This document shows positions 42,432 to 56,891 of a stretch of 64,000 nucleotides of DNA, one piece after another (the stretch's first letter is position 1; each line of letters starts with the position of its first letter). The stretch is taken from NCBI RefSeq assembly GCF_037078405.1, contig NZ_JAYMGZ010000003.1:310001-374000 (forward strand), read 5' to 3'. Under the pieces are notes generated by a model. That model saw only the letters and a program-made list of their open reading frames with translations. It made no database searches and was not told the DNA's origin. This DNA comes from Haloarcula sp. DT43. GTDB taxonomy: Archaea; Halobacteriota; Halobacteria; Halobacteriales; Haloarculaceae. A program made the translations under genes and the position numbers.

Positions 42432-43808
42432 ATGACCGGTAACGAGGAACATCCCAACCATCCCAGTGTCGACCAGTCAGACCGGACCGTCCCCCGTAAC
42501 CTCCGCCAGACTGGTGACCCCAACATCGAGATGTTGGTGTCGACGCGCGTTCGAAAGTCCCCGTTCTTCCACAAGTCCTTCAACGAGGAGGGTGCGTGGC
42601 GGGCAACCGTCTACAACCGCCTCTATCACCCGCGCGGCCTCATCGAACCCGAAGACGGCGGCGTGATGAAAGAGTACGACGCACTGACCAACACTGTCAC
42701 CCTTTGGGACGTCGCCGTCGAGCGACAGATCCGTGTCAAAGGACCTGACGCCGAGGCGCTGACGAACTACGTTGTCACACGCGACGTGACGGGTATGGAC
42801 GCCATGGACGGGAAGTACGTCATCCTCTGTAACGAGGACGGCGGCGTCCTGAACGATCCTGTCCTCCTGCGCCCCGAAGAAGACGAGTTCTGGTTCTCCA
42901 TCTCGGACTCGACGCTGATGCAGTGGCTCCAGGGAGTCAACGTCGACAACGACTTCGACGTCGAAATCGACGAGATCGATGTCGCACCGATGCAGATTCA
43001 GGGCCCGAGGGCGCTCGACGTGATGGTCGACGTCGTCGGCGAGGAAGTCAAAGACGTCCCGTACTACGGCCTGATGGACGCCGAAATCAACGGTGCCGAC
43101 GTGCTCATCAGCCAGACCGGCTTCTCCGGTGAGAAAGGGTTCGAGATTTACGTCCGAAACGCCCACGAAGACGCCGAGCGGGTGTGGGACCCCGTCATGG
43201 CGTCCGTCAAAGACCACGACGGCCGTCAGATCGCGCCGGGACACCACCGCCGGATTGCCGCCGGTATCATGTCCTGGGGACAGGACCTCGACCACGAGAC
43301 CTCCCCGTTCCAGGTCAATCTGGGCTATCACGTCCCTGACGACAAGGAAGCCGACTACATCGGCAAAGAGGTTCTCGAAGAGCAGAAAGAACAGATCGAG
43401 AACGGCAACTACCCGTTCGAACACAAACTCATCGGCCTGAAGATCGCCGGCGAGCCGATCCGCGACTACGCCCCCGACTTCTGGCTCATCTCCGACCCGG
43501 ACACGGGCGAGGAATGCGGGTACCTCACCTCGCCGTGGTGGAACCCGGATCTGGAGACCAACATCGGCATGGGCTTTGTCCCGGCTGAGAAGATTCAGGA
43601 AGTCACCGACACGCCGCTCAACGACGAAATCTACGACGAGGAACTGGATCTGGAGTTCCAGGTCCATCTCCCAGACGAGTACGCCGACGAGCCCGGTGAG
43701 CCGGTGTTTGCCACCGCTGCGAAAGTGCCGTTCAAGGAGTCGGTCAATCCGAGCGCCCGCGAGCAGGCGAAACTCAACGCCCGTAAAGAGGCCGAAAGCG
43801 ACGACTAA
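42432..43808 (+). CDS. DmdA/GcvT-like folate-dependent demethylase
   Basis: A 458-residue aminomethyltransferase-fold protein closer to DMSP demethylase (DmdA) than to glycine-cleavage T protein: the start KSPFFHKSFNEEGAWRATVY and YNRLYHPRG, then VTLWDVAVERQIRVKGPDAE, GVLNDPVLLRPEED, MQIQGPRALDVM and GEKGFEIYV follow the DmdA order. Such enzymes transfer a methyl from DMSP (or a similar methyl-sulfonium/methyl-amine donor) to THF. The GlyA gene follows 450 bases away on the other strand. The substrate is not proven; DMSP, betaine or another methyl donor are all possible. Confidence 0.82.
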   Translation: MTGNEEHPNHPSVDQSDRTVPRNLRQTGDPNIEMLVSTRVRKSPFFHKSFNEEGAWRATVYNRLYHPRGLIEPEDGGVMKEYDALTNTVTLWDVAVERQIRVKGPDAEALTNYVVTRDVTGMDAMDGKYVILCNEDGGVLNDPVLLRPEEDEFWFSISDSTLMQWLQGVNVDNDFDVEIDEIDVAPMQIQGPRALDVMVDVVGEEVKDVPYYGLMDAEINGADVLISQTGFSGEKGFEIYVRNAHEDAERVWDPVMASVKDHDGRQIAPGHHRRIAAGIMSWGQDLDHETSPFQVNLGYHVPDDKEADYIGKEVLEEQKEQIENGNYPFEHKLIGLKIAGEPIRDYAPDFWLISDPDTGEECGYLTSPWWNPDLETNIGMGFVPAEKIQEVTDTPLNDEIYDEELDLEFQVHLPDEYADEPGEPVFATAAKVPFKESVNPSAREQAKLNARKEAESDD

Positions 43809-44260: not shown

Positions 44261-45508
44261 CTACTCGTACAGCGTGTACTCGTCGGTCAGTTCGTCCACG
44301 CGGTCGCTGACCTCCGCGACGACCTCGTCGTCGTGTGGTGCGTCGATGACCTCACAAATGAGATCCGCGACTTCTCGACAGGCGTCTTCGCCGAACCCGC
44401 GCGTCGTCAGTGCCGGTGTCCCCGCACGGATGCCCGAGGGGTTGAACGCCGAGCGGGTCTCGCCCGGGACGGTGTTGGCGTTGAGGACGATACCGGCTTC
44501 CTCCAATGCTTCCTCGACCTCCTTTCCGGTCGTATCTGGGTGCGACGGTCGGAGATCGATGAGCACGAGGTGGTTGTCCGTGCCGCCGGAGACCAGCGAG
44601 AGGCCGTGCTCCTCCAGTCGTTCACCGAGTGCGATTGCGTTGTCGACGGTCTGCTGTGCATACTGCTCGAACTCCGGGGTTAGTGCCTCGCCGAAGCCGA
44701 CGGCCTTGCCGGCGACGTTGTGCATCGCGGGCCCGCCCTGGGCGCCGGGGAAGACGGCAGCGTCGATGCCGTCAGCGTACTCCTCATCGCACATGATGAT
44801 GCCACCGCGCCCGGCACGGATGGTCTTGTGCGTCGAGCCGGTGACAAAATCGGCGATGCCGACAGGCGACTCGTGGACGCCAGCGGCGACCAGCCCGGTG
44901 ATGTGGGCGATGTCCGCGAGGTGGTAGGCGTCGACTGCGTCGGCGGCTTCCTGAATCCGTTCGAAGTCGACCTCCCTGGGATATGCCGAATACCCCGAGA
45001 CGATGATGTCCGGGTCGAAGGATTCGGCTGACTCACGGAGTCCCTCGTAGTCGATGTACCCGGTATCCTCGTCGACCTTGTACTGTTCGACCTCGTACAC
45101 CTGACCGGCGAAGTTCGCCGGGTGGCCGTGCGAGAGGTGGCCGCCGTGTGTCAGGTCAAGCGAGAGGATTTTGTCGCCGGGTTCGAGTGCGGCGAGATAC
45201 ACGCCCATGTTCGCTTGCGAGCCCGAGTGTGGCTGGACGTTGACGTGGTCCGCGCCCCACAGCTCTGTCGCGCGGTCGATGGCGAGGTCCTCGACATCGT
45301 CGGCGTACGCACAGCCGCCGTAGTACCGCTCGCCGGGATACCCTTCCGCGTAGTTGTTCGTCAGCTCGGAGCTCTGGGCCTCCATCACAGCCTCGCTGAC
45401 GTGGTTCTCGCTGGCAATCATCGCCAGTGTGTCGTTTTGCCGCTGGCGCTCGCCGTCGAGCGCGTCAGCTACCGCTGGGTCCGCTTCACGAACAGTCTCG
45501 TACGTCAT
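44261..45508 (-). CDS. glyA: Serine hydroxymethyltransferase
   Basis: A 415-residue PLP enzyme that interconverts serine plus THF with glycine plus 5,10-methylene-THF. Family signatures are TLAMIASENHVSEAV near residue 30, YAEGYPGERYYGGCAYADDVE, QPHSGSQANMGVYLA, the PLP lysine segment VTGSTHKTIRAGRGGIIM and DNHLVLIDLRP. All are intact. In this region it would combine glycine and methylene-THF from demethylation into serine, linking the methylated-compound route to central metabolism. Confidence 0.96.
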   Translation of the reverse strand: MTYETVREADPAVADALDGERQRQNDTLAMIASENHVSEAVMEAQSSELTNNYAEGYPGERYYGGCAYADDVEDLAIDRATELWGADHVNVQPHSGSQANMGVYLAALEPGDKILSLDLTHGGHLSHGHPANFAGQVYEVEQYKVDEDTGYIDYEGLRESAESFDPDIIVSGYSAYPREVDFERIQEAADAVDAYHLADIAHITGLVAAGVHESPVGIADFVTGSTHKTIRAGRGGIIMCDEEYADGIDAAVFPGAQGGPAMHNVAGKAVGFGEALTPEFEQYAQQTVDNAIALGERLEEHGLSLVSGGTDNHLVLIDLRPSHPDTTGKEVEEALEEAGIVLNANTVPGETRSAFNPSGIRAGTPALTTRGFGEDACREVADLICEVIDAPHDDEVVAEVSDRVDELTDEYTLYE

Positions 45509-45722
45509 ACTGCGTTCAACGGCCTGGTAACGTAATAATCTGCGTACCGACGCAACCTATCAGAACAGTGGCTGATTGTGGTGACTGGTACGCAGCTACG
45601 GTCTCTGGTGGCGACTGGAGGGGACAGGACTAGCACAACTGGCTCCACCCGCCGCTGTCGTGAGGCCAATATTGCATCTCAACATAGATTCATATGTGAA
45701 TTGTTCATACATTCCAATGAAC

Positions 45723-47048
45723 ATGTCTGAACAGACCAGACGTGACCTTCTGAAACGGCTCGGAGTCGGAAGTACAGCCGGTGTCGTGTCGCTAGCTGGG
45801 TGCGCTCAGCAGTCAGACGATGGCGGTGGTGACGGAGAGGCAACGACCACGGAAGCCGGTGACGAGTCGACCAACACGGAGAGCGGCGATGGTGACAGTG
45901 GTGGCGGTGAATCGATTACAATCGGGACGCTGTTCCCTGTCACGGGCACCAACAGCGCATACGGCGGTGGCCATCAGGAGGCAGCCAATTTAGCCGCCGA
46001 GGAAATCAACGAGGCAGGTGGTCCGCTGGACCGTGAGGTCGAAACTATCAACCGCGACACGGAAGGGAACCCCTCTCGGGCGGCCCAGAAGTTCCGGACG
46101 ATGATAAACGAAGAAGGCATCGTTGGACTCGTGGGCCCGTACTCAAGTGGTATCGGGACCACGCTCGCGCCGGTCGCTCGCGACAACCGGGTGATGGAAG
46201 TGAGCAACGGGAACACGTCCCCGGCACTCGCAACTGCGGGCGTCAACGAAGACAACGGCGTGAAATACTACGGCCGGACCGCACCGAACGATGTCCAGCA
46301 AGCGCTCGTGATGGGGCGGATACTGAACCAGCGCGTCGAAGCCGAGACGGCAGCGTTCCTCTACGTCGACAATCCCTATGGGCAGGGGCTCGCTGAGCAG
46401 GCCAGCGAGAACTTCGAGGGTGAGACACTGAGCATGGTCGGCTACTCCCAGCAGACGAACGACTACACGTCGACGCTGGATTCAGTATTCGAGGGCGACC
46501 CCGACGCCGTGGGAGCGGTGATGTACCCGGGGAACGGTCGGACGATACTGAACCAGTGGAGCCAGGGCGGCTACGGCGGACAGTGGGTCGCCGCCGAGGC
46601 TATCCTCGCACCGCAACTCCTGTCGGATCTCTCCGACATCGTCGAGGGCATGTATATCACGTCCCCACAGACTGCCAACAGTGAGACGTTTATCAGCAAT
46701 ATGGGTGGTGAGAGCGCAGTCACACAGTTCGCACCCCACGCCTACGACGCGACCTACCTGGAGGCGCTGGCGATACAGCAGGCCGGGGAAGCCAGCGGAA
46801 CGGGTATCGCGGAGAACATCCGCAGTGTCTCCCGGGGCGACGGGACGACGGTCGGAGTCGATGAGTTCGGGGCCGGCAAGGAGGCCCTCGCAAACGGCGA
46901 GAGCGTCAACTACGACGGGGCCTCCGGCTCGGTTGACCTCAACGAAAACCTCGAGCCGGTCGTTCCCTACCGCATCCTCGAAGTGACAAGCGGTGAGGCC
47001 GAAGTCATCGAGGAAGTTCCCCTGAGCTACTTCGAGGGCAAGATGTAG
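45723..47048 (+). CDS. livK: LivK-like ABC transporter substrate-binding lipoprotein
   Basis: A 441-residue periplasmic-type binding protein. The N terminus has a Tat motif (TRRDLLKRL, Arg6-Arg7) and a lipobox ending at Cys27 (SLAGC), so it is exported folded and lipid-anchored outside the membrane. A Gly/Asp/Thr-rich linker follows, then the type I binding fold: TIGTLFPVTGTNSAYGGGH, IVGLVGPYSSGIG, VEVSNGNTSPALA. The permeases and ATPases are encoded convergently beyond the next gene. An alternative start is ATG 45717. The ligand is probably an amino acid or related zwitterion; it cannot be specified. Confidence 0.9.
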   Translation: MSEQTRRDLLKRLGVGSTAGVVSLAGCAQQSDDGGGDGEATTTEAGDESTNTESGDGDSGGGESITIGTLFPVTGTNSAYGGGHQEAANLAAEEINEAGGPLDREVETINRDTEGNPSRAAQKFRTMINEEGIVGLVGPYSSGIGTTLAPVARDNRVMEVSNGNTSPALATAGVNEDNGVKYYGRTAPNDVQQALVMGRILNQRVEAETAAFLYVDNPYGQGLAEQASENFEGETLSMVGYSQQTNDYTSTLDSVFEGDPDAVGAVMYPGNGRTILNQWSQGGYGGQWVAAEAILAPQLLSDLSDIVEGMYITSPQTANSETFISNMGGESAVTQFAPHAYDATYLEALAIQQAGEASGTGIAENIRSVSRGDGTTVGVDEFGAGKEALANGESVNYDGASGSVDLNENLEPVVPYRILEVTSGEAEVIEEVPLSYFEGKM

Positions 47049-47093
47049 CCGGCCGCGCTCGCCCCGTCGCCCGCTACTGGGGCGGCGTGTGGC

Positions 47094-47100
47094 TTTATTT
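47094..47100 (+). promoter_or_regulatory. TATA box of the unknown gene at 47123
   Basis: TTTATTT centred 26 bases ahead of the ATG at 47123 fits a leaderless promoter and fixes the start. Confidence 0.5.
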
Positions 47101-47122
47101 CGCCGACAGCTATACTACCGGT

Positions 47123-48325
47123 ATGAGCGTCGATATCGAACCGGAGTGGCAGCCGGCGACCAAGCTGAACGTCATCGGCGGAGCGGTCGATTTCACGGCC
47201 ATAGATCCGCTCCCCGATGGCGTCACCCGCGACCAGATCGAGGAGATTTGCTACACGGTCCGTGAACTCTACGGCGACTACGTCGATGAAATCGTCGCTG
47301 AGACGACCCTCTCACAGCGAGAGGCCCAGACGTGGGTACTCCGGACTCTCGCTCACGACGGCACCGACCCGCTCTCCTATGAGGCGATTGGACTGTACAT
47401 CTGGGCCATTGGCCGTGCGACGGAGGGCGACCCGCTCTCGCGGACCATCGTGACGGAGTATTACGACCGGGCCGAGACGAAGGTCGAGCGTGCCGAGGCG
47501 ACGGTCAAGCGGACCGGGCCACCGCCGTATCCGGATGACGTGTATGATACCCCCGCGCTGCTCTGGGTCGATGCACCGGTCGCCGAGCGGCTCCAGCGAC
47601 ACCGGCAACCGAACGAAACGTTCAGTGACTGCCTCGCCCGACTGCTGGACGAGTCCGTTTCAGCGGTCACCATCGAAGCGTTCGTCGAGGCCTACCTGAC
47701 CGAACGGGACGCCGACTATGTAGCGGTCGACACCGTCTACCCCGACTGGGATGCCAAACTGCACGTGGTCGTCGGGGTGCCGGCGGAGGGTCCGAAACCC
47801 GACGCGGTCGCTGACGCCACGATGTTACGAGTGGACGACCGCACATATGATTTTACCGTCAGCGAGGAGGTCGGTCCCATCCACGCGGACTCTCACCTCG
47901 TCGTGTCAGCTGAGACAGCGGACACGTCGGTTGCAGTCGCGGACGGAGCTGACAGACTCGGAACGGCACTTGCGGGCGTCGAGCGTTCGCTCCCGGACCT
48001 GGTATCCCATCTCCGCTCCGTGGGCGCAACAGCACTCGCCGTCGGGACTGAACCTGCCGGCGCTGGCGCACACCTGTTCCCGGTTTTCGAGGGGGAGCCG
48101 GCTGCGGAACCGCTAGCTTCGCTCGAACGGATAACGCTAGACGAACGGACGCTGGACGTGGGTCGGGTCTCGCCGCTGAGGATGGCTGCATATCGGGACC
48201 GAAGCGAGACAACAAGACTGCTGTGGGCGCGCGATGACGGGCCTCTGGAACAACGGGCGCTCCCTGATGACCCACTCGGCCGGCGGGAACTGCTCCCGGA
48301 CGCAGTGCTCAGAACGAGCACTTAA
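47123..48325 (+). CDS. Conserved-looking hypothetical with embedded VapB-like motif
   Basis: A 400-residue protein of unknown function between livK and livF. The N-terminal third is helical. Residues about 150-180 read DAPVAERLQRHRQPNETFSD-CLARLLDE, which follows the same pattern as VapB antitoxins in this window (KAKLEAVKREDETFDELLDRL), so a ribbon-helix-helix-like DNA-binding or dimerisation module may be embedded. The C-terminal half has VVVGVPAEGPKP and repeated beta strands. It could regulate the neighbouring transporter; that is a guess. It converges on livF with a 4-base overlap of ends. Confidence 0.6.
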   Translation: MSVDIEPEWQPATKLNVIGGAVDFTAIDPLPDGVTRDQIEEICYTVRELYGDYVDEIVAETTLSQREAQTWVLRTLAHDGTDPLSYEAIGLYIWAIGRATEGDPLSRTIVTEYYDRAETKVERAEATVKRTGPPPYPDDVYDTPALLWVDAPVAERLQRHRQPNETFSDCLARLLDESVSAVTIEAFVEAYLTERDADYVAVDTVYPDWDAKLHVVVGVPAEGPKPDAVADATMLRVDDRTYDFTVSEEVGPIHADSHLVVSAETADTSVAVADGADRLGTALAGVERSLPDLVSHLRSVGATALAVGTEPAGAGAHLFPVFEGEPAAEPLASLERITLDERTLDVGRVSPLRMAAYRDRSETTRLLWARDDGPLEQRALPDDPLGRRELLPDAVLRTST

Positions 48326-49029
48326 CCGCCGAGATACAGCTCACCGACCTCGTCGCTGTCGAGCAGGTCCTGTCCGCTCCCGGCGAACTCGTTCTCTCCC
48401 ATATCCAGTACGTAGCCTCTGTCCGAGACTGACAGCGCTTGACGCGCGTTCTGTTCGACCATGAGAATCGCCGTCTCGGTTTCGTCACGGATTCGAACGA
48501 GGCGGTCAAACATGTCGTCTACAAGGTCCGGAGCCAGACCGGCCGAGGGCTCGTCGACGAGGAGCAGTTCTGGGTCGAGCATCAGCGCCGAGGACAGGGC
48601 GAGCATCTGCTGTTGTCCCCCGGACATGGTTCCGGCCTTCTGGTTCTGTCGCTCACGGAGAACCGGGAACCGCTCGAAGGCGTCCTGGAAGTCAGCTTCA
48701 CTCACGTCCGCGTCGATGTACGCCCCCATTTCGAGGTTCTCCCGGACGGTGAGTGTCGGGAAGACGTTCTCCCGCTGGGGGACGTAACACAGCCCCTGTT
48801 CGGTCACCTCGTCGGCCCGGAGGTCGGTAATGTCGGTTCCGTCGAACGTGACTCGCCCTGCCCAGCAGTCGATGAGGCCGTAGATAGCCTTCATCAGCGT
48901 CGACTTCCCTGCCCCGTTCGGACCGATGATAGTGACGATCTCCTCCGCACCGACATCTATGTCGACGCCGTGGAGAATTTCCGCGTCACCGTATCCGGAG
49001 ACAACGCCCCGTGCTTCGAGCAGTGCCAT
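48322..49029 (-). CDS. livF: Branched-chain amino acid type ABC ATPase LivF
   Basis: A 235-residue ATPase. Walker A is IIGPNGAGKSTLM, Q-loop VPQRENVFPTL, signature MSGGQQQMLALSSALMLDP and Walker B LLLVDEPSAGLAPDL, with the terminal switch His replaced by the usual MVEQNAR Gln context of LivF. It energises the uptake of amino acids or related compounds with LivG, LivH and LivM. It is last in the livHMGF operon; one base separates it from the livG stop. The ATG at 49029 is used in preference to an upstream ATG. Confidence 0.93.
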   Translation of the reverse strand: MALLEARGVVSGYGDAEILHGVDIDVGAEEIVTIIGPNGAGKSTLMKAIYGLIDCWAGRVTFDGTDITDLRADEVTEQGLCYVPQRENVFPTLTVRENLEMGAYIDADVSEADFQDAFERFPVLRERQNQKAGTMSGGQQQMLALSSALMLDPELLLVDEPSAGLAPDLVDDMFDRLVRIRDETETAILMVEQNARQALSVSDRGYVLDMGENEFAGSGQDLLDSDEVGELYLGG

Positions 49030-49030
49030 C

Positions 49031-49999
49031 TCAGTCCACCCCCAGGTAGGCGTCGATGACACGCTGGTCGTCCCGAATCGTAGCCGGTTCGCCTGCGACC
49101 AGTTTCTTGCCCTCGTTCATGACGATGATTGTATCACAGAGATCCATGATGACTTCCATGTCGTGTTCGACGATACAGAAGGTGTATCCCTCGTCCCGCA
49201 ACGCTCTGATGCGGTCGGTCAGCTTCTCGGTCAGCGCCGGATTGACGCCCGCGACCGGTTCGTCGAGGAGGACGAGTTTCGGGTCGAGCATCAGCACCCG
49301 GCCCAGTTCCAACAGTTTCCGCTGGCCGCCCGAGAGATTGCCGGCCAGTTCTTCGGCGACGTGGTCGATTTCGAGCAGTTCCAGCATCTCCGTCGCCCGC
49401 TCGTACAGTTCCCTCTCTTCCTCGGCGACGGCGTCACGGCGGAACCACGCGTTGGCGAGGTTCTCCCCGGCCTGTTGCTGGGGGGCGAGCATCAGGTTCT
49501 CCCGGGCGGTCATATCGCTCAGCTCCCGCGTAATCTGGAATGTCCGGGCCAGTCCCTCTCGAGCCAGCATGAACGGCCGACTGAATTTGTGGCCTTCATA
49601 TGTGGCTTTGAATTGCTCCTGTCCGAGGTAGACGCCGGCGCCGAGGCCCGCACCAAGCGCGCCAGCGCCCAGACTGGCCGCGGTGCCGAGCCCGGCGGCC
49701 CCGAAGGCCGCGACAGCACCGATGCTCCCGAAGGTGAGTCCTGACGCACCCCCCCAGATGAGCTGTTCGTCGCTGCTTGCCGTCATCAGATCCTGTAGCG
49801 ACCGCCCGTCGTAACGAACGGTCCCGCTGTCGGGCTTGTAAAACCCGCTGATGAGATTAAACGTCGTTGTCTTGCCGGCGCCGTTAGGCCCGATAAGCCC
49901 CGTTATCGAGCCTTCCTCGATGTCGAAGGTGGCACCGTCGACGGCAACGATGCCACCGAAGGTCTTCCGGAGGTCCTCTACTTCGAGAAGTGCGCTCAT
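49031..49999 (-). CDS. livG: LivG-type ABC ATPase with GA-rich hydrophobic insertion
   Basis: A 322-residue ATPase with intact Walker A (GLIGPNGAGKTT, 35-46), Q-loop (ARTFQITREL), signature (LSGGQRKLLELG) and Walker B (LVLLDEPVAGVNP). Between the GRSLQDL strand and ARTFQ it has about 70 extra residues (about 72-145), including a Gly/Ala-rich hydrophobic run (81-126) that could form a helical hairpin. Normal LivG proteins (about 255 residues) have only a short PHKIARLGL loop there. The start overlaps the livM stop by 4 bases. Confidence 0.9.
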   Translation of the reverse strand: MSALLEVEDLRKTFGGIVAVDGATFDIEEGSITGLIGPNGAGKTTTFNLISGFYKPDSGTVRYDGRSLQDLMTASSDEQLIWGGASGLTFGSIGAVAAFGAAGLGTAASLGAGALGAGLGAGVYLGQEQFKATYEGHKFSRPFMLAREGLARTFQITRELSDMTARENLMLAPQQQAGENLANAWFRRDAVAEEERELYERATEMLELLEIDHVAEELAGNLSGGQRKLLELGRVLMLDPKLVLLDEPVAGVNPALTEKLTDRIRALRDEGYTFCIVEHDMEVIMDLCDTIIVMNEGKKLVAGEPATIRDDQRVIDAYLGVD

Positions 50000-51777
50000 T
50001 CGTCGTCACCTCCGTCGGCACGGGCGGCCACGTCGCCTTCCCGCTGTGGGGCCTGGGATTCGTTGGCCCCTACAGGCGTGCTGTAGTTCGCTTTCCCCAG
50101 CAGTCCGTCCGGCAAATAATACAGCACGATGAGGAACAGAATCCCCATGACGACGAGACGGAAGGCGACCACGTTGACGCGCAGTGCTGGTGGGAAAAAC
50201 GACGCGATTTGGGTCGTCGCCTGCTGGAAGGCCCAGAACACGGCGGCCCCGAGGACCGTCCCCTTGTTGTTGCTGGGCCCGCCGATGAAGACGATGAGCA
50301 GGGCGATGAACGTCACCCGCGGCGCAAACGTGACGAAGGTGAGCCCCTGAGTGTACATCGCCCACAGCGCCCCCGCGAAACCGGCCAGCGCCGAGCCGAT
50401 GACCATGCTCTGTATCTTGTACACGAAGGGGTCCTTGCCCAGCGAGCGCACCACGTCTTCGTCGTTCCGGACTGCCCGAAGCACGCGGCCGAACGGCGAC
50501 CGGGCGGTTAGTTCCAGCACGTAGTAGGCCCCGATCAGGAACAGGACAAAACCGGCCAACAGGAAGCGCTGGTAGTCGACCTGCACAGTCAGATTCCCGA
50601 CAACAGCCGCGATGTAGTCCACGCCGACATCCCCGCCGAAAGCCAGTATCCACACGAGGTTCTGTAGCAACGCTTTGAGCGCCGGCCCGAGTTGCCCGCT
50701 ACTGAGGGGTCCGACTAGCGGAATGACGAAGTACCAGAGAGCGACAAACCACAGCGCCGCGACGCCGACTATCTGGACTTTCGCCGCGGCGAACCAGTCC
50801 CGCGACTGAACGGCACGGTAGAACCCGCCGACGACGAGTCCGAGCAGGAGCAGGCCCCCGGCGATCTTGACTGCCACGGCATCGGCGTAGGGGACCGGCA
50901 GCAAGGCGACGAGGAATCCAGTCCCGAGGGCGATACCACTCAGCCACTCACGACGCGTGAGTCGTCCGAACTGTCGAACCAGAACCACAGTAAGCACGAG
51001 CCAGGTGAACGCGGAGACAAACACGCCGACCAGCAGGATGCGGTCTGCGACAGCTAGCAACACCGCCATGAGGACGGCGGCGATGACGCCGCCGCCGGCG
51101 GCAACCTGAATGGGAGTCGCTAGCGGGCCGTCAGAGCGACTGAGTGTCGAGAGTCCGAACGAGCCCGCGAGGTACAGCGTCGACACTGGTAGCGGGGAGC
51201 TGTAATCGCACTCCCCAGCGAGCACTGCCAGGGCGACACCCCAGACGACGGCTGTGATAACGCCGAACAGAACCGGTGTGGCCGGCAGCGACACGCCGAG
51301 GAACGGCACGCTAACCTGCCCTTCCAGCAACAGCGGGAAGCTGCTTTGTAACGGTGGGCTGTATCCGCGCAGCGCGTCGGGGCCGTTTGCGAACCACGTC
51401 TCGGCCTGAATGAACCGCTGGAAGATGACGGACACGCCCAGAACCGTGATCGCGAGGTAGTCCTCCCGCAGGCGGATGGTCGGCAGCGCGACCAGCCCAC
51501 CGATTATTCCCGACAGCAGCGTTGCGACCGCGATGCCGACGATCCACGTTCCGACAATGGGGATGTCGCCGAGTCCGACGACGTAGGCGGTGAAGTCCCC
51601 CGGGTCGTCCGGTGGGAGAACGAACAGGACCGACGTGTACGCGCCCACGAGGAAGAATCCCACATGACCGAAGTCCAACAGCCCGGTGTGGCCATACTTC
51701 AGGGTCAGCCCGTACGAGAGGATGCCGTAGATTGCGACCAGCACCATAAACGAGATGACGACGTCTGATACTGCCAT
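49996..51777 (-). CDS. livM: LivM-type ABC permease, enlarged
   Basis: A 593-residue permease, almost twice the usual LivM (about 320-360). The N-terminal half is standard: SYGLTLKYGHTGLLDFGHVG (the LivM start), then GGLVALPTIRLREDYLAI. After the WFANGPDALRGY region, about 220 residues with extra transmembrane helices are inserted, and the core resumes with FGRVLRAVRNDEDVVRSLGK (the EAA-like loop) and PRVTFIALLIVFIGGPSNN. The inserted block has no recognised domain. It is in an operon with livH (3-base gap) and livG (4-base overlap). Confidence 0.9.
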   Translation of the reverse strand: MAVSDVVISFMVLVAIYGILSYGLTLKYGHTGLLDFGHVGFFLVGAYTSVLFVLPPDDPGDFTAYVVGLGDIPIVGTWIVGIAVATLLSGIIGGLVALPTIRLREDYLAITVLGVSVIFQRFIQAETWFANGPDALRGYSPPLQSSFPLLLEGQVSVPFLGVSLPATPVLFGVITAVVWGVALAVLAGECDYSSPLPVSTLYLAGSFGLSTLSRSDGPLATPIQVAAGGGVIAAVLMAVLLAVADRILLVGVFVSAFTWLVLTVVLVRQFGRLTRREWLSGIALGTGFLVALLPVPYADAVAVKIAGGLLLLGLVVGGFYRAVQSRDWFAAAKVQIVGVAALWFVALWYFVIPLVGPLSSGQLGPALKALLQNLVWILAFGGDVGVDYIAAVVGNLTVQVDYQRFLLAGFVLFLIGAYYVLELTARSPFGRVLRAVRNDEDVVRSLGKDPFVYKIQSMVIGSALAGFAGALWAMYTQGLTFVTFAPRVTFIALLIVFIGGPSNNKGTVLGAAVFWAFQQATTQIASFFPPALRVNVVAFRLVVMGILFLIVLYYLPDGLLGKANYSTPVGANESQAPQREGDVAARADGGDDE

Positions 51778-51780
51778 CTG

Positions 51781-53199
51781 TCAGTCCCCCACTATTCCTT
51801 CGGGCTTGATGAGCAAGACGAGCAGTAAGACGACGAACGCGACAGGGACTCGGTATGTGGCACTCAGACCCGGGATAGCGAAGATACCGACTTCCATCGC
51901 AAGCCCGACGACGTAACTCCCGAGGATAGCCCCATACACTGATATCCCGCCGAGAATGACGCCAGCGAACATCGGGAGCAAGAGGAAGAAGCCGAGGTTG
52001 ATCGTGATGTTGCTGAACAGGAAGCCAAGCAACACACCGGCGACCGCGGCGAACATCCCCGCGAGTATCCAGACGACCATCATCACACGGCGCGTGTTTA
52101 TGCCGCGAATCATCGCCAGTTCCCGGTTGTCGCTGGTCGCCCGCATCGCCTTCCCGAGCGTCGTCGCCTGTAGCAGGTAGTGGAGGAATCCCATGAGGCC
52201 GGCCGCGATGAGGATGATCCCCAGCCTGAGCGGCGACGTTCGCAGGCGCGTCTCGTACAGTGTGTCCGACGGGACCGTCCCGCCACCGGCGAACAGTGCG
52301 CCGCCGACCAGCAGGACGGCGACCCCACCGAGTCCAGCAGCCAGGCGCGGACCGACCACACCTGCAGTGTCACGTCGGCGTCGGTACCCCGCACCTGCGA
52401 CCACGGCGGCAACGCCCAGGATACCAATCACTTCCAGCCACCCATAGCCCAGGGTGAACAGCTGGAGGTTCTCTGCGCCGCGCGTGTCGAGAACGTTGAC
52501 AACGACGCCATTGCTCGACACCAGAAGGTCGATCAACTTCGCGAACGTGAAGTTGACGCTCGACCCGGCCGCCTGAATCGTCGTGTCCACCTCGTAGAAC
52601 CGAATGTCGCCGCCGAAGACAGTCTGGATACTGAACCGGATAATAAATGCCATCGCGAGGGAGACGATGAGCATCATCGCTAGTTCGACGTCTTTCTCCC
52701 GGAATTTGCGGAACACGAACGATTCGGTCAGCGGTACCACGGCACCGAGAACAACGACGGCGAACAGGAGTGCGGCGGGATAGGACGGGAGACCGGCCAC
52801 AATGAGCGCGCCGACAATCACTGCGAGGCCAACGTGCGTTGCGGTCCCTACTGTCGGTGATACGTCAATTGCCCACCACCCCCCGCGTATCGCGTCGACG
52901 CCACCGAGATGGTACACCGACCCGAGAATCCCCGCGGCCGAGACGGCGAACAACAGCCCGGCTCCCGTGAGACCGACCGCACGCGGTCCCGTGGCGAACA
53001 CGTCGAACAGCGGGACGGACTGTGGCTTGTTCACAAGAAGCGCGGCATAAGCACCCAGTGTCAGAAGGTCCCCGTGTGCGAAGTTCGGAACCTCGGCGAT
53101 GTCGTAGACGAGCGACAGCCCGATTGCACCCAGTGAGATAATACTACCCGTGACCAACCCAGTCAGAATTGCGTTCAACAGTCCGGCAGACGGGGCCAT
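51781..53199 (-). CDS. livH: LivH-type ABC permease, enlarged
   Basis: A 472-residue permease, compared with about 290 in typical LivH. It starts in the usual way with GLVTGSIISLGAIGLSLVYD and NFAHGDLLTLGAYAAL. Extra helical segments occur after NKPQSVPL and again in the middle (VLLVGGALFAGGG), before the conserved GKAMRATSDNRELAMIRGIN loop, and the C-terminal ISVYGAILGSYVVGL. It is first in the livHMGF operon. Its promoter on the minus strand is AT-rich around 53215-53235. Confidence 0.9.
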   Translation of the reverse strand: MAPSAGLLNAILTGLVTGSIISLGAIGLSLVYDIAEVPNFAHGDLLTLGAYAALLVNKPQSVPLFDVFATGPRAVGLTGAGLLFAVSAAGILGSVYHLGGVDAIRGGWWAIDVSPTVGTATHVGLAVIVGALIVAGLPSYPAALLFAVVVLGAVVPLTESFVFRKFREKDVELAMMLIVSLAMAFIIRFSIQTVFGGDIRFYEVDTTIQAAGSSVNFTFAKLIDLLVSSNGVVVNVLDTRGAENLQLFTLGYGWLEVIGILGVAAVVAGAGYRRRRDTAGVVGPRLAAGLGGVAVLLVGGALFAGGGTVPSDTLYETRLRTSPLRLGIILIAAGLMGFLHYLLQATTLGKAMRATSDNRELAMIRGINTRRVMMVVWILAGMFAAVAGVLLGFLFSNITINLGFFLLLPMFAGVILGGISVYGAILGSYVVGLAMEVGIFAIPGLSATYRVPVAFVVLLLVLLIKPEGIVGD

Positions 53200-53307: not shown

Positions 53308-54168
53308 CTATCTGTCCAGTCGGTTGTGCCGCCACTGCTCCGTGTCGGGCGTCTGATTGAAGGTGTATATGTGGACGCCGCGGATGTTGTACTCGTCGTC
53401 TCCGACGTGGGGGGCGAGGCCGTCGATGAGTTCGTCGGGTTTGTACGTCCCGCGAGAGCCGACCAGTTGCTTGACAAACCCAAGAATGCCGGTCGTCTTC
53501 CGGAGGAATTTAATCGAATCACCGACGCCGACCTTTTGAGAGATTTGCATCAGGCGCTGGTAGTTCATCACCCCCGGGATACCGACTTCTACCGGGAGTT
53601 CGATACCGCGGGCGCGGATGTCTTCGACCCACTCTAGCACGGTGTCCGGGTCGTAACAGAGCTGGGTGACGATGTATGTCGCGTACGGTGCTTTCTGTGC
53701 CATCGACTCCGCCAGCGTCTCGTCATCGATGAAATCGTGACCCTCGGGGTAGCCCGTGATGCCGACTTCTTCGAAAGAGTACTCTGTCTCTGCGAGCACT
53801 TCGAGCAGGTCCAGTGCCGACCCATACTCGCCAGCCGGTTCCTCGCGGTCACCACCCGGGACGAAGATGTCCGTAATGCCTGCCTGCTCCAGACGCTCAG
53901 CGATTGCTTTGAGTTGCTCCCTGTCCTCGATGTACCGGGCCGCAATATGTGGCACGACATCGAACCCCATCTCGGCGGCTTCTTCCGTCTTTTCGACGGT
54001 CTTCTCGATGCCGAGCTGTGGCGATGTCGTGATTGCGATGGTCGCGTCGTCGGGGAGGTGGGTGATCTCCTCGTCGAAGCTCTCGAACGGCATCAGTTCG
54101 AACCGAGCGCTCGTCAGTAGCGTCTGGACACCCTGACTGTCTGAGACAGCACGCGTTCCGAGGGCCAT
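53308..54168 (-). CDS. metF: Methylene-THF reductase-like protein
   Basis: A 286-residue TIM-barrel protein of the MTHFR superfamily. Segments include TSPQLGIEKTVEKTEEAAEM, PHIAARYIEDREQLKAIAER, IFVPGGDREEPAGEYGSALD and ATYIVTQLCYDPDTVLEWV. In the bacterial enzyme FAD binds such loops and 5,10-methylene-THF is reduced to methyl-THF. The family also includes divergent oxidoreductases in folate-dependent demethylation, which may run in the oxidative direction. A TTATAAACGGG promoter lies at 54219-54233. The next gene on the same strand, further upstream, is a regulator; both share a promoter motif. Confidence 0.85.
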   Translation of the reverse strand: MALGTRAVSDSQGVQTLLTSARFELMPFESFDEEITHLPDDATIAITTSPQLGIEKTVEKTEEAAEMGFDVVPHIAARYIEDREQLKAIAERLEQAGITDIFVPGGDREEPAGEYGSALDLLEVLAETEYSFEEVGITGYPEGHDFIDDETLAESMAQKAPYATYIVTQLCYDPDTVLEWVEDIRARGIELPVEVGIPGVMNYQRLMQISQKVGVGDSIKFLRKTTGILGFVKQLVGSRGTYKPDELIDGLAPHVGDDEYNIRGVHIYTFNQTPDTEQWRHNRLDR

Positions 54169-55566: not shown

Positions 55567-56523
55567 TCATCGCGGTCTCGCGATACCCGCGAGCCGCTCT
55601 CCCTGCACGACGACAGACTCCCTAGCGAGCGAGAATATCACTCCTCGTTCTGTCGCTGAGACAACCTGTTGTTGCTCGAACGAGGCGGGTTCGTAGACTG
55701 TCCCCAGTCGCTCACCAGCGGCAACGGTGTCGCCGACGGCGATGTCCGGCTGACATTCGAACAGCCCCGATTCCGACGCGGTGACTGGCTCCGCATCGTT
55801 TCGGAGTACCGTCTGTGCAGCCTTTGATTCTGGCTCTTCCGGGAGGAGTGCCTGTTCGCGCAGGAGATTGTGTATCCCGTCGACACCAGCCGCAACCGCG
55901 TCCTCTGCAATTCGGCGACTGTTCGATAGTTCTGCGGTGATAACCGGAATCCCGGCTGCCGCAGCCGCAGCCCGGAATGTCCTGCCGGACCCGTCGTCGT
56001 CCGTATCCTTGGGTGCGTCGGTGAGCCTGTATGCAGTGCCGAACGCTTCGGCGAGGCCCTCGGCGGCTGGGTCGTCTGCCCGGCATCGGACGTGTTCCAG
56101 CATATCTGCTGTGCCGGTGTGGAGGTCGACCGCCGCGTCGGCGTCTTTTACGAGTTCCCACAGGCGAGCGGCGAACTGTTCCTGTAGACTGCCATTCACG
56201 TCGCCTGGCCACACGCGGTTCAGGTTCGGGTTCATCACGTCGTACTCGCCCGGAGTCATGTAGGACCGGTGATCGAACGCGAGCTGATTCACTACCGGAA
56301 CGACGAGCACTGTCCCGGCGATGGCCGCGTCAGTCAGGCGGTCATGTAGTCGACGTAACGCGGCTGGACCGTTGAGTTCGATGCCGTGTTGGGCCGCCTG
56401 AATATACACGGTCGGTCCGGAGCCGCCGTCGTATCGGTGGACAGTCACAGACACGTCTCGCCCCGACGGCAATCGTCCGAGCTGTCGGTCAGTCGTCGTG
56501 TGCGTGACGGCCCTGTAGTCCAT
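55567..56523 (-). CDS. Aspartoacylase / succinylglutamate desuccinylase-like hydrolase
   Basis: A 318-residue zinc carboxypeptidase-fold amidohydrolase. Zinc ligands are His46 and Glu49 in AAQHGIELNG and His135 in AVDLHTG; NLNRVWPG fits the substrate-binding N-R-x-x-P-G pattern, and Glu198 in TAELSNS is the presumed catalytic Glu. A C-terminal beta-rich domain (ending near the GERLAGIARP segment) follows. Family members deacylate N-acyl amino acids or ectoine-type compounds, so it might remove an acyl group from a compatible solute. The ATG at 56523 is taken; the longer frame is unsupported. Confidence 0.82.
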   Translation of the reverse strand: MDYRAVTHTTTDRQLGRLPSGRDVSVTVHRYDGGSGPTVYIQAAQHGIELNGPAALRRLHDRLTDAAIAGTVLVVPVVNQLAFDHRSYMTPGEYDVMNPNLNRVWPGDVNGSLQEQFAARLWELVKDADAAVDLHTGTADMLEHVRCRADDPAAEGLAEAFGTAYRLTDAPKDTDDDGSGRTFRAAAAAAGIPVITAELSNSRRIAEDAVAAGVDGIHNLLREQALLPEEPESKAAQTVLRNDAEPVTASESGLFECQPDIAVGDTVAAGERLGTVYEPASFEQQQVVSATERGVIFSLARESVVVQGERLAGIARPR

Positions 56524-56891
56524 ATCAAACCCCGGCGACGCGAAGACAAAAACGCTGGGAGTTGGAGCGTCGCTGGATAACACGGAGTGGGGCTGTGATT
56601 CCTCTCAGAACAGAGCCACTGGCCGATACGGCGATCATCGCTGATCTGAAATCATCCTGTTGGAAATATCACACAGGGATGGTAACACATTACTTGACAG
56701 TACAATCGGACTGTTTGAACTCACTCGAAATCTCTGAATAGCGGCGATAATCACCGTAGGGAATCCAGATTTATTAACAATGGTACTCCTGTTATCCTGA
56801 AACACTACCTGACACTCCTACAATATATTGCAAAAGAACCCGGGCAGGCGGTAACTATATTGCCACGCCATCGTACGGTCTACCCAGAGTT
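56524..56891. other. AT-rich control region ahead of the demethylation genes
   Basis: About 370 bases without a gene, markedly AT-rich between 56640 and 56840. TAACTATATTG (56852-56862) about 35 bases before the ATG at 56892 may be the TATA box of the first dehydrogenase. Several inverted fragments exist, but I see no strong repeat. Confidence 0.45.

Follow-up and report, generated by a model that had tools for sequence, protein, structure and literature searches.

In ABC importers the ATPase subunits are regarded as peripheral, meeting the membrane part of the transporter mainly through coupling helices. Among importers of the Liv/HAAT kind, the closest solved ATPase to the one described here is MJ1267, a LivG (PDB 1g6h, 1gaj and 1g9x) with the same fold and motifs (VIA Z 28.5–30.2 over ~238 residues), and such systems have in common a BCA_ABC_TP_C tail on the ATPase and an operon with LivF, LivM, LivH and LivK. 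The next closest solved fold is that of LptB, the ATPase of LptB2FG (Z ~28), whose chains of ~235–240 amino acids lack the insertion that we describe below. NBD1 of CFTR, also an ABC nucleotide-binding domain, likewise carries an insertion specific to its lineage, but at a different position, before Walker A, where it is polar and regulatory. In a passage of PMC7350234 the CFTR insertion is called a dynamic region. The open-licence papers searched yielded nothing that matches this feature, whether under ABC ATPases with hydrophobic insertions or membrane hairpins, under haloarchaeal LivG or under MJ1267 insertions, and no earlier description of a haloarchaeal Liv-type importer subfamily with three enlarged subunits.

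In this study we analyse a 64,000-nucleotide stretch of the genome of Haloarcula sp. DT43 (contig NZ_JAYMGZ010000003.1, positions 310,001 to 374,000), hereafter the window, in which a gene on the reverse strand (49031–49999) encodes a LivG-type ABC ATPase of 322 amino acids, recognized by motif, profile and structure matches. No catalytic motif is missing: the protein has Walker A (GPNGAGKT, residues 37–44; 49868–49891), the Q-loop glutamine Q155 (49535–49537), LSGGQ (222–226), Walker B (242–247) and H279, and residues G37–T46, Q155, S223–Q226, D246–E247 and H279 are invariant in an alignment of 54 LivG sequences. It matches the ABC transporter ATPase family (PF00005) with 102 bits, the match being split into two stretches of which the best covers residues 21–75, and its C-terminus scores 27.9 against BCA_ABC_TP_C (PF12399; cut-off 25.5), as expected of a LivG/HAAT ATPase. 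MJ1267 is the top PDB match and PRK11300 LivG the top NCBIfam model; because the latter score, 230.9 bits in two pieces, falls below the curated cut-off of 362, we file the protein as a LivG-type subunit and not as an equivalog of the E. coli type. It is an intact ABC ATPase of the Liv/HAAT importer kind, a known class with an unusual insertion.

It had been predicted from the window alone that about 70 extra residues, including a Gly/Ala-rich run, split the loop ahead of the Q-loop of this LivG, and the insertion is confirmed. Residues 4–69 align with residues 7–72 of the 1g6h chain and residues 142–320 with residues 76–256, leaving ~69 residues extra; the insertion is 72 residues long (70–141; 49577–49792, reverse strand) where MJ1267 has ~3. 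It is preceded by the strand that follows Walker A and lies ahead of the Q-loop, with Q155 coming 14 residues past its end. The Gly/Ala-rich run spans residues 81–126, and glycine and alanine make up 42% of the insert; the length of 72 residues counts the polar flanks, the apolar portion being ~46 residues long. At this place the genome's other two LivG proteins, L208 ('GESITGLPPYTLANRGLVRTFQ') and L209, have an ordinary short linker and no insertion.

Five parts can be told apart within the insertion, all read on the reverse strand: an N-terminal polar flank (residues 70–80; 49760–49792), a first apolar arm (81–98; 49706–49759), a tip (99–109; 49673–49705), a second arm (110–124; 49628–49672) and a C-terminal flank rich in lysine, arginine and glutamine (125–141; 49577–49627). 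Counting D, E, K, R, N, Q and H as polar over the 54 aligned LivGs, we find none in the 949 residue cells of the first arm and none in the 810 of the second, or 0 of 1,759 together. The tip tolerates them (17 of 593 cells, in 12 of the 54 sequences and from several lineages), and they are frequent in the N-terminal (254/594, 43%) and C-terminal (467/860, 54%) flanks. Six positions of the region are invariant, M72 and E78 in the first flank, G120 and Y124 in the second arm, R141 at the end of the last flank and P142 directly after it; W82 is present in 52 of the 54 sequences, and it and Y124 both lie at one and the same end of the arm pair. Along the arms a small residue returns at intervals of about 3–4 positions, as in GxxxG-like ladders.

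The arms being rich in glycine, their hydrophobicity is marginal. Kyte-Doolittle maxima of 1.25–1.84 straddle the usual cut-off of 1.6, with the second arm lower, and the best 19-residue sums on the biological scale, computed with central-residue values and serving for relative comparison only, are about +2 to +5 for the hairpin, which places it between the transmembrane segments of LivH and LivM (about -2 to +3) and the soluble core of LivG (+11 to +14).

AlphaFold2 predicts two helices of 27–29 residues (76–102 and 106–134), each containing one of the arms, joined by a three-residue turn (103–105), with a pLDDT that rises from 33–43 for a mixed alignment to about 56–66 when only insertion-bearing homologues are used; disorder, which would have spoken against the original prediction, is not what the model returns. 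The order of the helices suggests an antiparallel packing and an orientation for the two arms. The arrangement of apolar, small-residue-rich helices about a short turn presumably resembles the two-helix glycine-zipper membrane hairpins of the Pfam Gly-zipper and Rick_17kDa type. The window hairpin differs from these in sitting inside an ATPase domain and in matching no Pfam glycine-zipper family: none was among the 14 weakly matching families (32 members searched), and the insertion has no significant Pfam match at all, the best weak one being DUF6861 (E 0.0016). Matches to the insertion among PDB profiles, led by a HEAT repeat protein (6veh, E 3e-4) and then a ketoacyl synthase, look driven by composition and were set aside. 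The structural matches from Foldseek and VIA extend over the ATPase core, and among the matches listed no chain with a similar hairpin was noticed.

Polar flanks, apolar arms near bilayer length, a tip that tolerates polar residues and aromatics at one end are most simply read together as a membrane hairpin. We put at roughly 60% the probability that the insertion is a membrane hairpin of the glycine-zipper type which anchors LivG next to the permease, where membrane insertion, orientation and contacts are what we infer. Judging from ABC importers in general, the surface of the ATPase on which the insertion stands may face the membrane. The arms, with 18 and 15 residues that are all apolar and with polar helical stalks extending them, would enter or span the membrane beside LivH and LivM. 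Both ends of the hairpin would be cytosolic, the turn would be on the far side, and Trp82 and Tyr124 would sit at the inner interface. The small faces (84, 87, 91, 94/95 and 98; 111, 116, 120 and 122) would pack the arms together or onto a permease helix and the aliphatic faces would look toward lipid or partner helices. Beyond the usual coupling-helix contact, such a hairpin would tie the ATPase to both the membrane and the permeases, and may stabilize the complex or tune Q-loop coupling at high salt. We count in favor of this reading that the two weak profile matches outside LivG that were examined both lie in membrane proteins, and against it that the pLDDT of the hairpin is no more than moderate and that, since LivF has no hairpin, the anchor would be one-sided. 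Of the membrane hairpin originally proposed for this cytosolic ATPase, then, the helical, charge-free, membrane-like pattern stands, while its hydrophobicity is marginal.

The operon of the insertion-bearing gene has the composition of a HAAT system: two BPD_transp_2 permeases, another ATPase and a binding protein of the Peripla_BP_6 family. On the same strand as livG lie the partner ATPase of LivF type (48322–49062), identified by profile matches and without an insertion, a LivM-type permease of 593 amino acids (49996–51777), the stop of which overlaps the livG start directly after it, and a LivH-type permease of 472 amino acids (51781–53199); the LivK-type substrate-binding protein, also identified by profile matches, is on the opposite, forward strand (45660–47048). 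Both permeases are enlarged. The main stretch absent from ordinary LivM is discontinuous, at residues ~149–405 (50563–51333), and holds several TM-like segments, and LivH has two extra segments, at residues ~58–134 (52798–53028) and ~215–318 (52246–52557); the extra stretches of both proteins are rich in TM-like segments. Apparent LivM–LivG fusions at other loci (LivG ORFs of 700–900 amino acids in L037, L040, L044, L052 and L062) were rejected as upstream extensions running over LivM in another frame. In the Halorussus-type loci L040, L041, L044, L154, L156–L158, L162–L165, L167 and L168, LivM is larger still (633–657 amino acids), and two or three LivK-like binding proteins often stand next to one operon. 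Elsewhere LivH of L037 (from 3952) is split into ORFs of 285 and 138 amino acids and LivK of L061 into ORFs of 270 and 179, by frameshift or assembly error.

The proposed tie between the insertion and the enlarged permeases holds in large part, though not strictly. Enlarged LivH and LivM accompany the insertion in 51 of 53 evaluable systems and occur in none of 45 controls without it: in the 51 systems LivM has 546–673 amino acids and LivH, a few truncated or split genes excepted, 468–487, against at most 449 and 396, and mostly ~300–355, in the 45. As the enlarged subunits descend from one or a few events, this is an association of lineages and not dozens of independent cases. The two exceptions, L060 (Halorubrum persicum) and L184, keep the insertion with a LivH of 298 and a LivM of 318–319 amino acids, which shows that the hairpin can do without enlarged permeases; the linkage is strong but not obligatory. 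Their permeases group with ordinary ones in the tree, whereas their LivG and LivF nest inside the enlarged group (support 95). A tree constrained to keep the enlarged group in one piece is not rejected (AU p 0.16), and hairpin and permease enlargement may have come in either order. A module swap is possible at these two loci, where a hairpin LivG and its LivF stand beside ordinary LivH and LivM. In both, the tip is polar (ASQSTPSTAIQ and AGQSDPSMAVE) and W82 is replaced, as expected of a membrane hairpin whose surroundings differ, and the tip may respond to the enlarged permeases.

In the main rival reading the hairpin stays out of the lipid and is a clamp that docks on protein, in all likelihood on those extra parts of the enlarged LivH and LivM that lie in the cytosol or at the membrane edge. 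Its marginal hydrophobicity and very high glycine content would suit this, as would the near-perfect co-occurrence with those permeases and the change in tip character where the permeases are of normal size. Yet hairpin and length persist in L060 and L184 without the permease extras, and polar residues are avoided at every position of the arms and not of the tip, a pattern that suits lipid better than a boundary between protein and water; we regard the clamp as unlikely, if the most serious competitor. A bolder form of the membrane reading, to which we give somewhat less than even odds, would make this ABC importer ATPase an integral membrane protein, its transmembrane glycine-zipper hairpin beside the Q-loop giving the motor another direct means of sensing or moving the permease and co-evolving with the extra TM helices of both permeases.

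GxxxG-like ladders also mediate packing in soluble oligomers, and together with the AlphaFold2 helices they would fit a cytosolic glycine-zipper module for self-association, either pairing LivGs between transporters or stabilizing the ATPase dimer. Such a module would, however, expose 46 apolar residues in a salt-in cytoplasm unless they were always buried, and comparable runs are absent from the soluble proteins of our control sample of ~800 haloarchaeal ORFs from the same loci: runs of at least 44 residues free of D, E, K, R, N, Q and H occur in 27 of the 674 ORFs without a predicted TM segment, 26 of them being LivG hairpins and the remaining one a proline-rich ORF that is probably spurious. 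The charge-free run is more than chance, and we consider self-association improbable.

A whole-protein scan of 84,980 species' genomes finds ~30 loci in haloarchaea with an alignment from end to end (in Haloarcula mannanilytica, Halopenitus, Halorussus, Haloplanus, Haloquadratum, Halobellus, Natrinema, Halopiger, Halorubrum persicum and MAGs), and in the LivGs ranked after them the alignment breaks sharply at the insertion. Only two of 32 genomes of the window's genus carry it, its own and one other. Of 392 Halobacteriales genomes, 41 have a match to a profile of the insertion, in one case by chance (membrane protein G010), and in a 393-genome sample of the phylum it finds nothing outside Halobacteriales except a chance match in a DMT-type membrane protein. 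The weak matches G695 and G010, considered as occurrences of the hairpin elsewhere, were rejected as unrelated membrane proteins, and a plasmid search for the hairpin gave no match. With a few added by family searches, 54 distinct haloarchaeal LivGs were compared, and in a LivG tree built without the insertion columns one branch (support 99) parts the insertion-bearing proteins from all others; the LivF tree gives the same split with weaker support (90) and the joint LivG and LivF tree supports it at 98. The insertion is apparently of single origin, and it is patchy among species yet conserved in one transporter subfamily.

A neutral, lineage-specific insertion without function would find a permissive site here, in a loop whose length differs among other ABC ATPases, and would account for an insertion that evolves faster than the core (31–79% against 61–96% identity to the window protein). 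Selection argues otherwise. In the codon comparison, the insertion has dN/dS of 0.19, 0.18 and 0.18 for the window against L033, L034 and L037, the three pairs with enough changes to be informative (core 0.05–0.14), and is under purifying selection; its length is nearly fixed (70–75 residues in 51 of 51 measured, in agreement with the insertion alignment), M72, E78, G120, Y124 and R141 are invariant, and no loss was seen among the 54 members, which were partly found through the insertion itself. We hold neutrality to be very improbable, and of the objection that this might be a lineage-wide variant with no link to function only half applies: the insertion is a conserved, apparently single-origin feature of one subfamily, but it is patchy and under selection. 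Least probable of all is a co-translational signal bringing nascent LivG to the membrane or an insertase for assembly with LivH and LivM, with no role in transport, which a membrane-like hairpin in the subunit encoded right after LivM, with overlapping stop and start, might suggest but which ordinary Liv systems assemble without and for which marginal hydrophobicity would make a poor signal.

Import of branched-chain amino acids by the window system is putative. The transporter is flanked by genes for a DmdA/GcvT-family methyltransferase-like protein (42432–43808, forward), serine hydroxymethyltransferase (44261–45508, reverse), a MetF-like reductase (53308–54168, reverse) and a DoeB-like deacetylase (55567–56583, reverse). 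The first three are kept in the three nearest relatives (L033–L035) and are absent from the other clade members within the stretches examined; these neighbors, one-carbon genes among them, may point to a methylated, C1-linked or osmolyte-type substrate. A 412-amino-acid protein (47087–48325, forward) with no Pfam or NCBIfam match accompanies LivK and the operon of the insertion type at loci of Haloarcula, Haloplanus, Haloquadratum and Halopenitus and was not found in the Halorussus loci examined.

The insertion marks a haloarchaeal Liv-type importer subfamily with three enlarged subunits. An ATPase with a membrane hairpin of its own would be unusual and easily tested: if the membrane reading is true, a hairpin in the nucleotide-binding domain would be an extra and removable mechanical link between ATPase and permease, through which the transmission of motion from one to the other could be tested by deletion, with L060 and L184, which combine the hairpin with ordinary permeases, as a built-in natural control.
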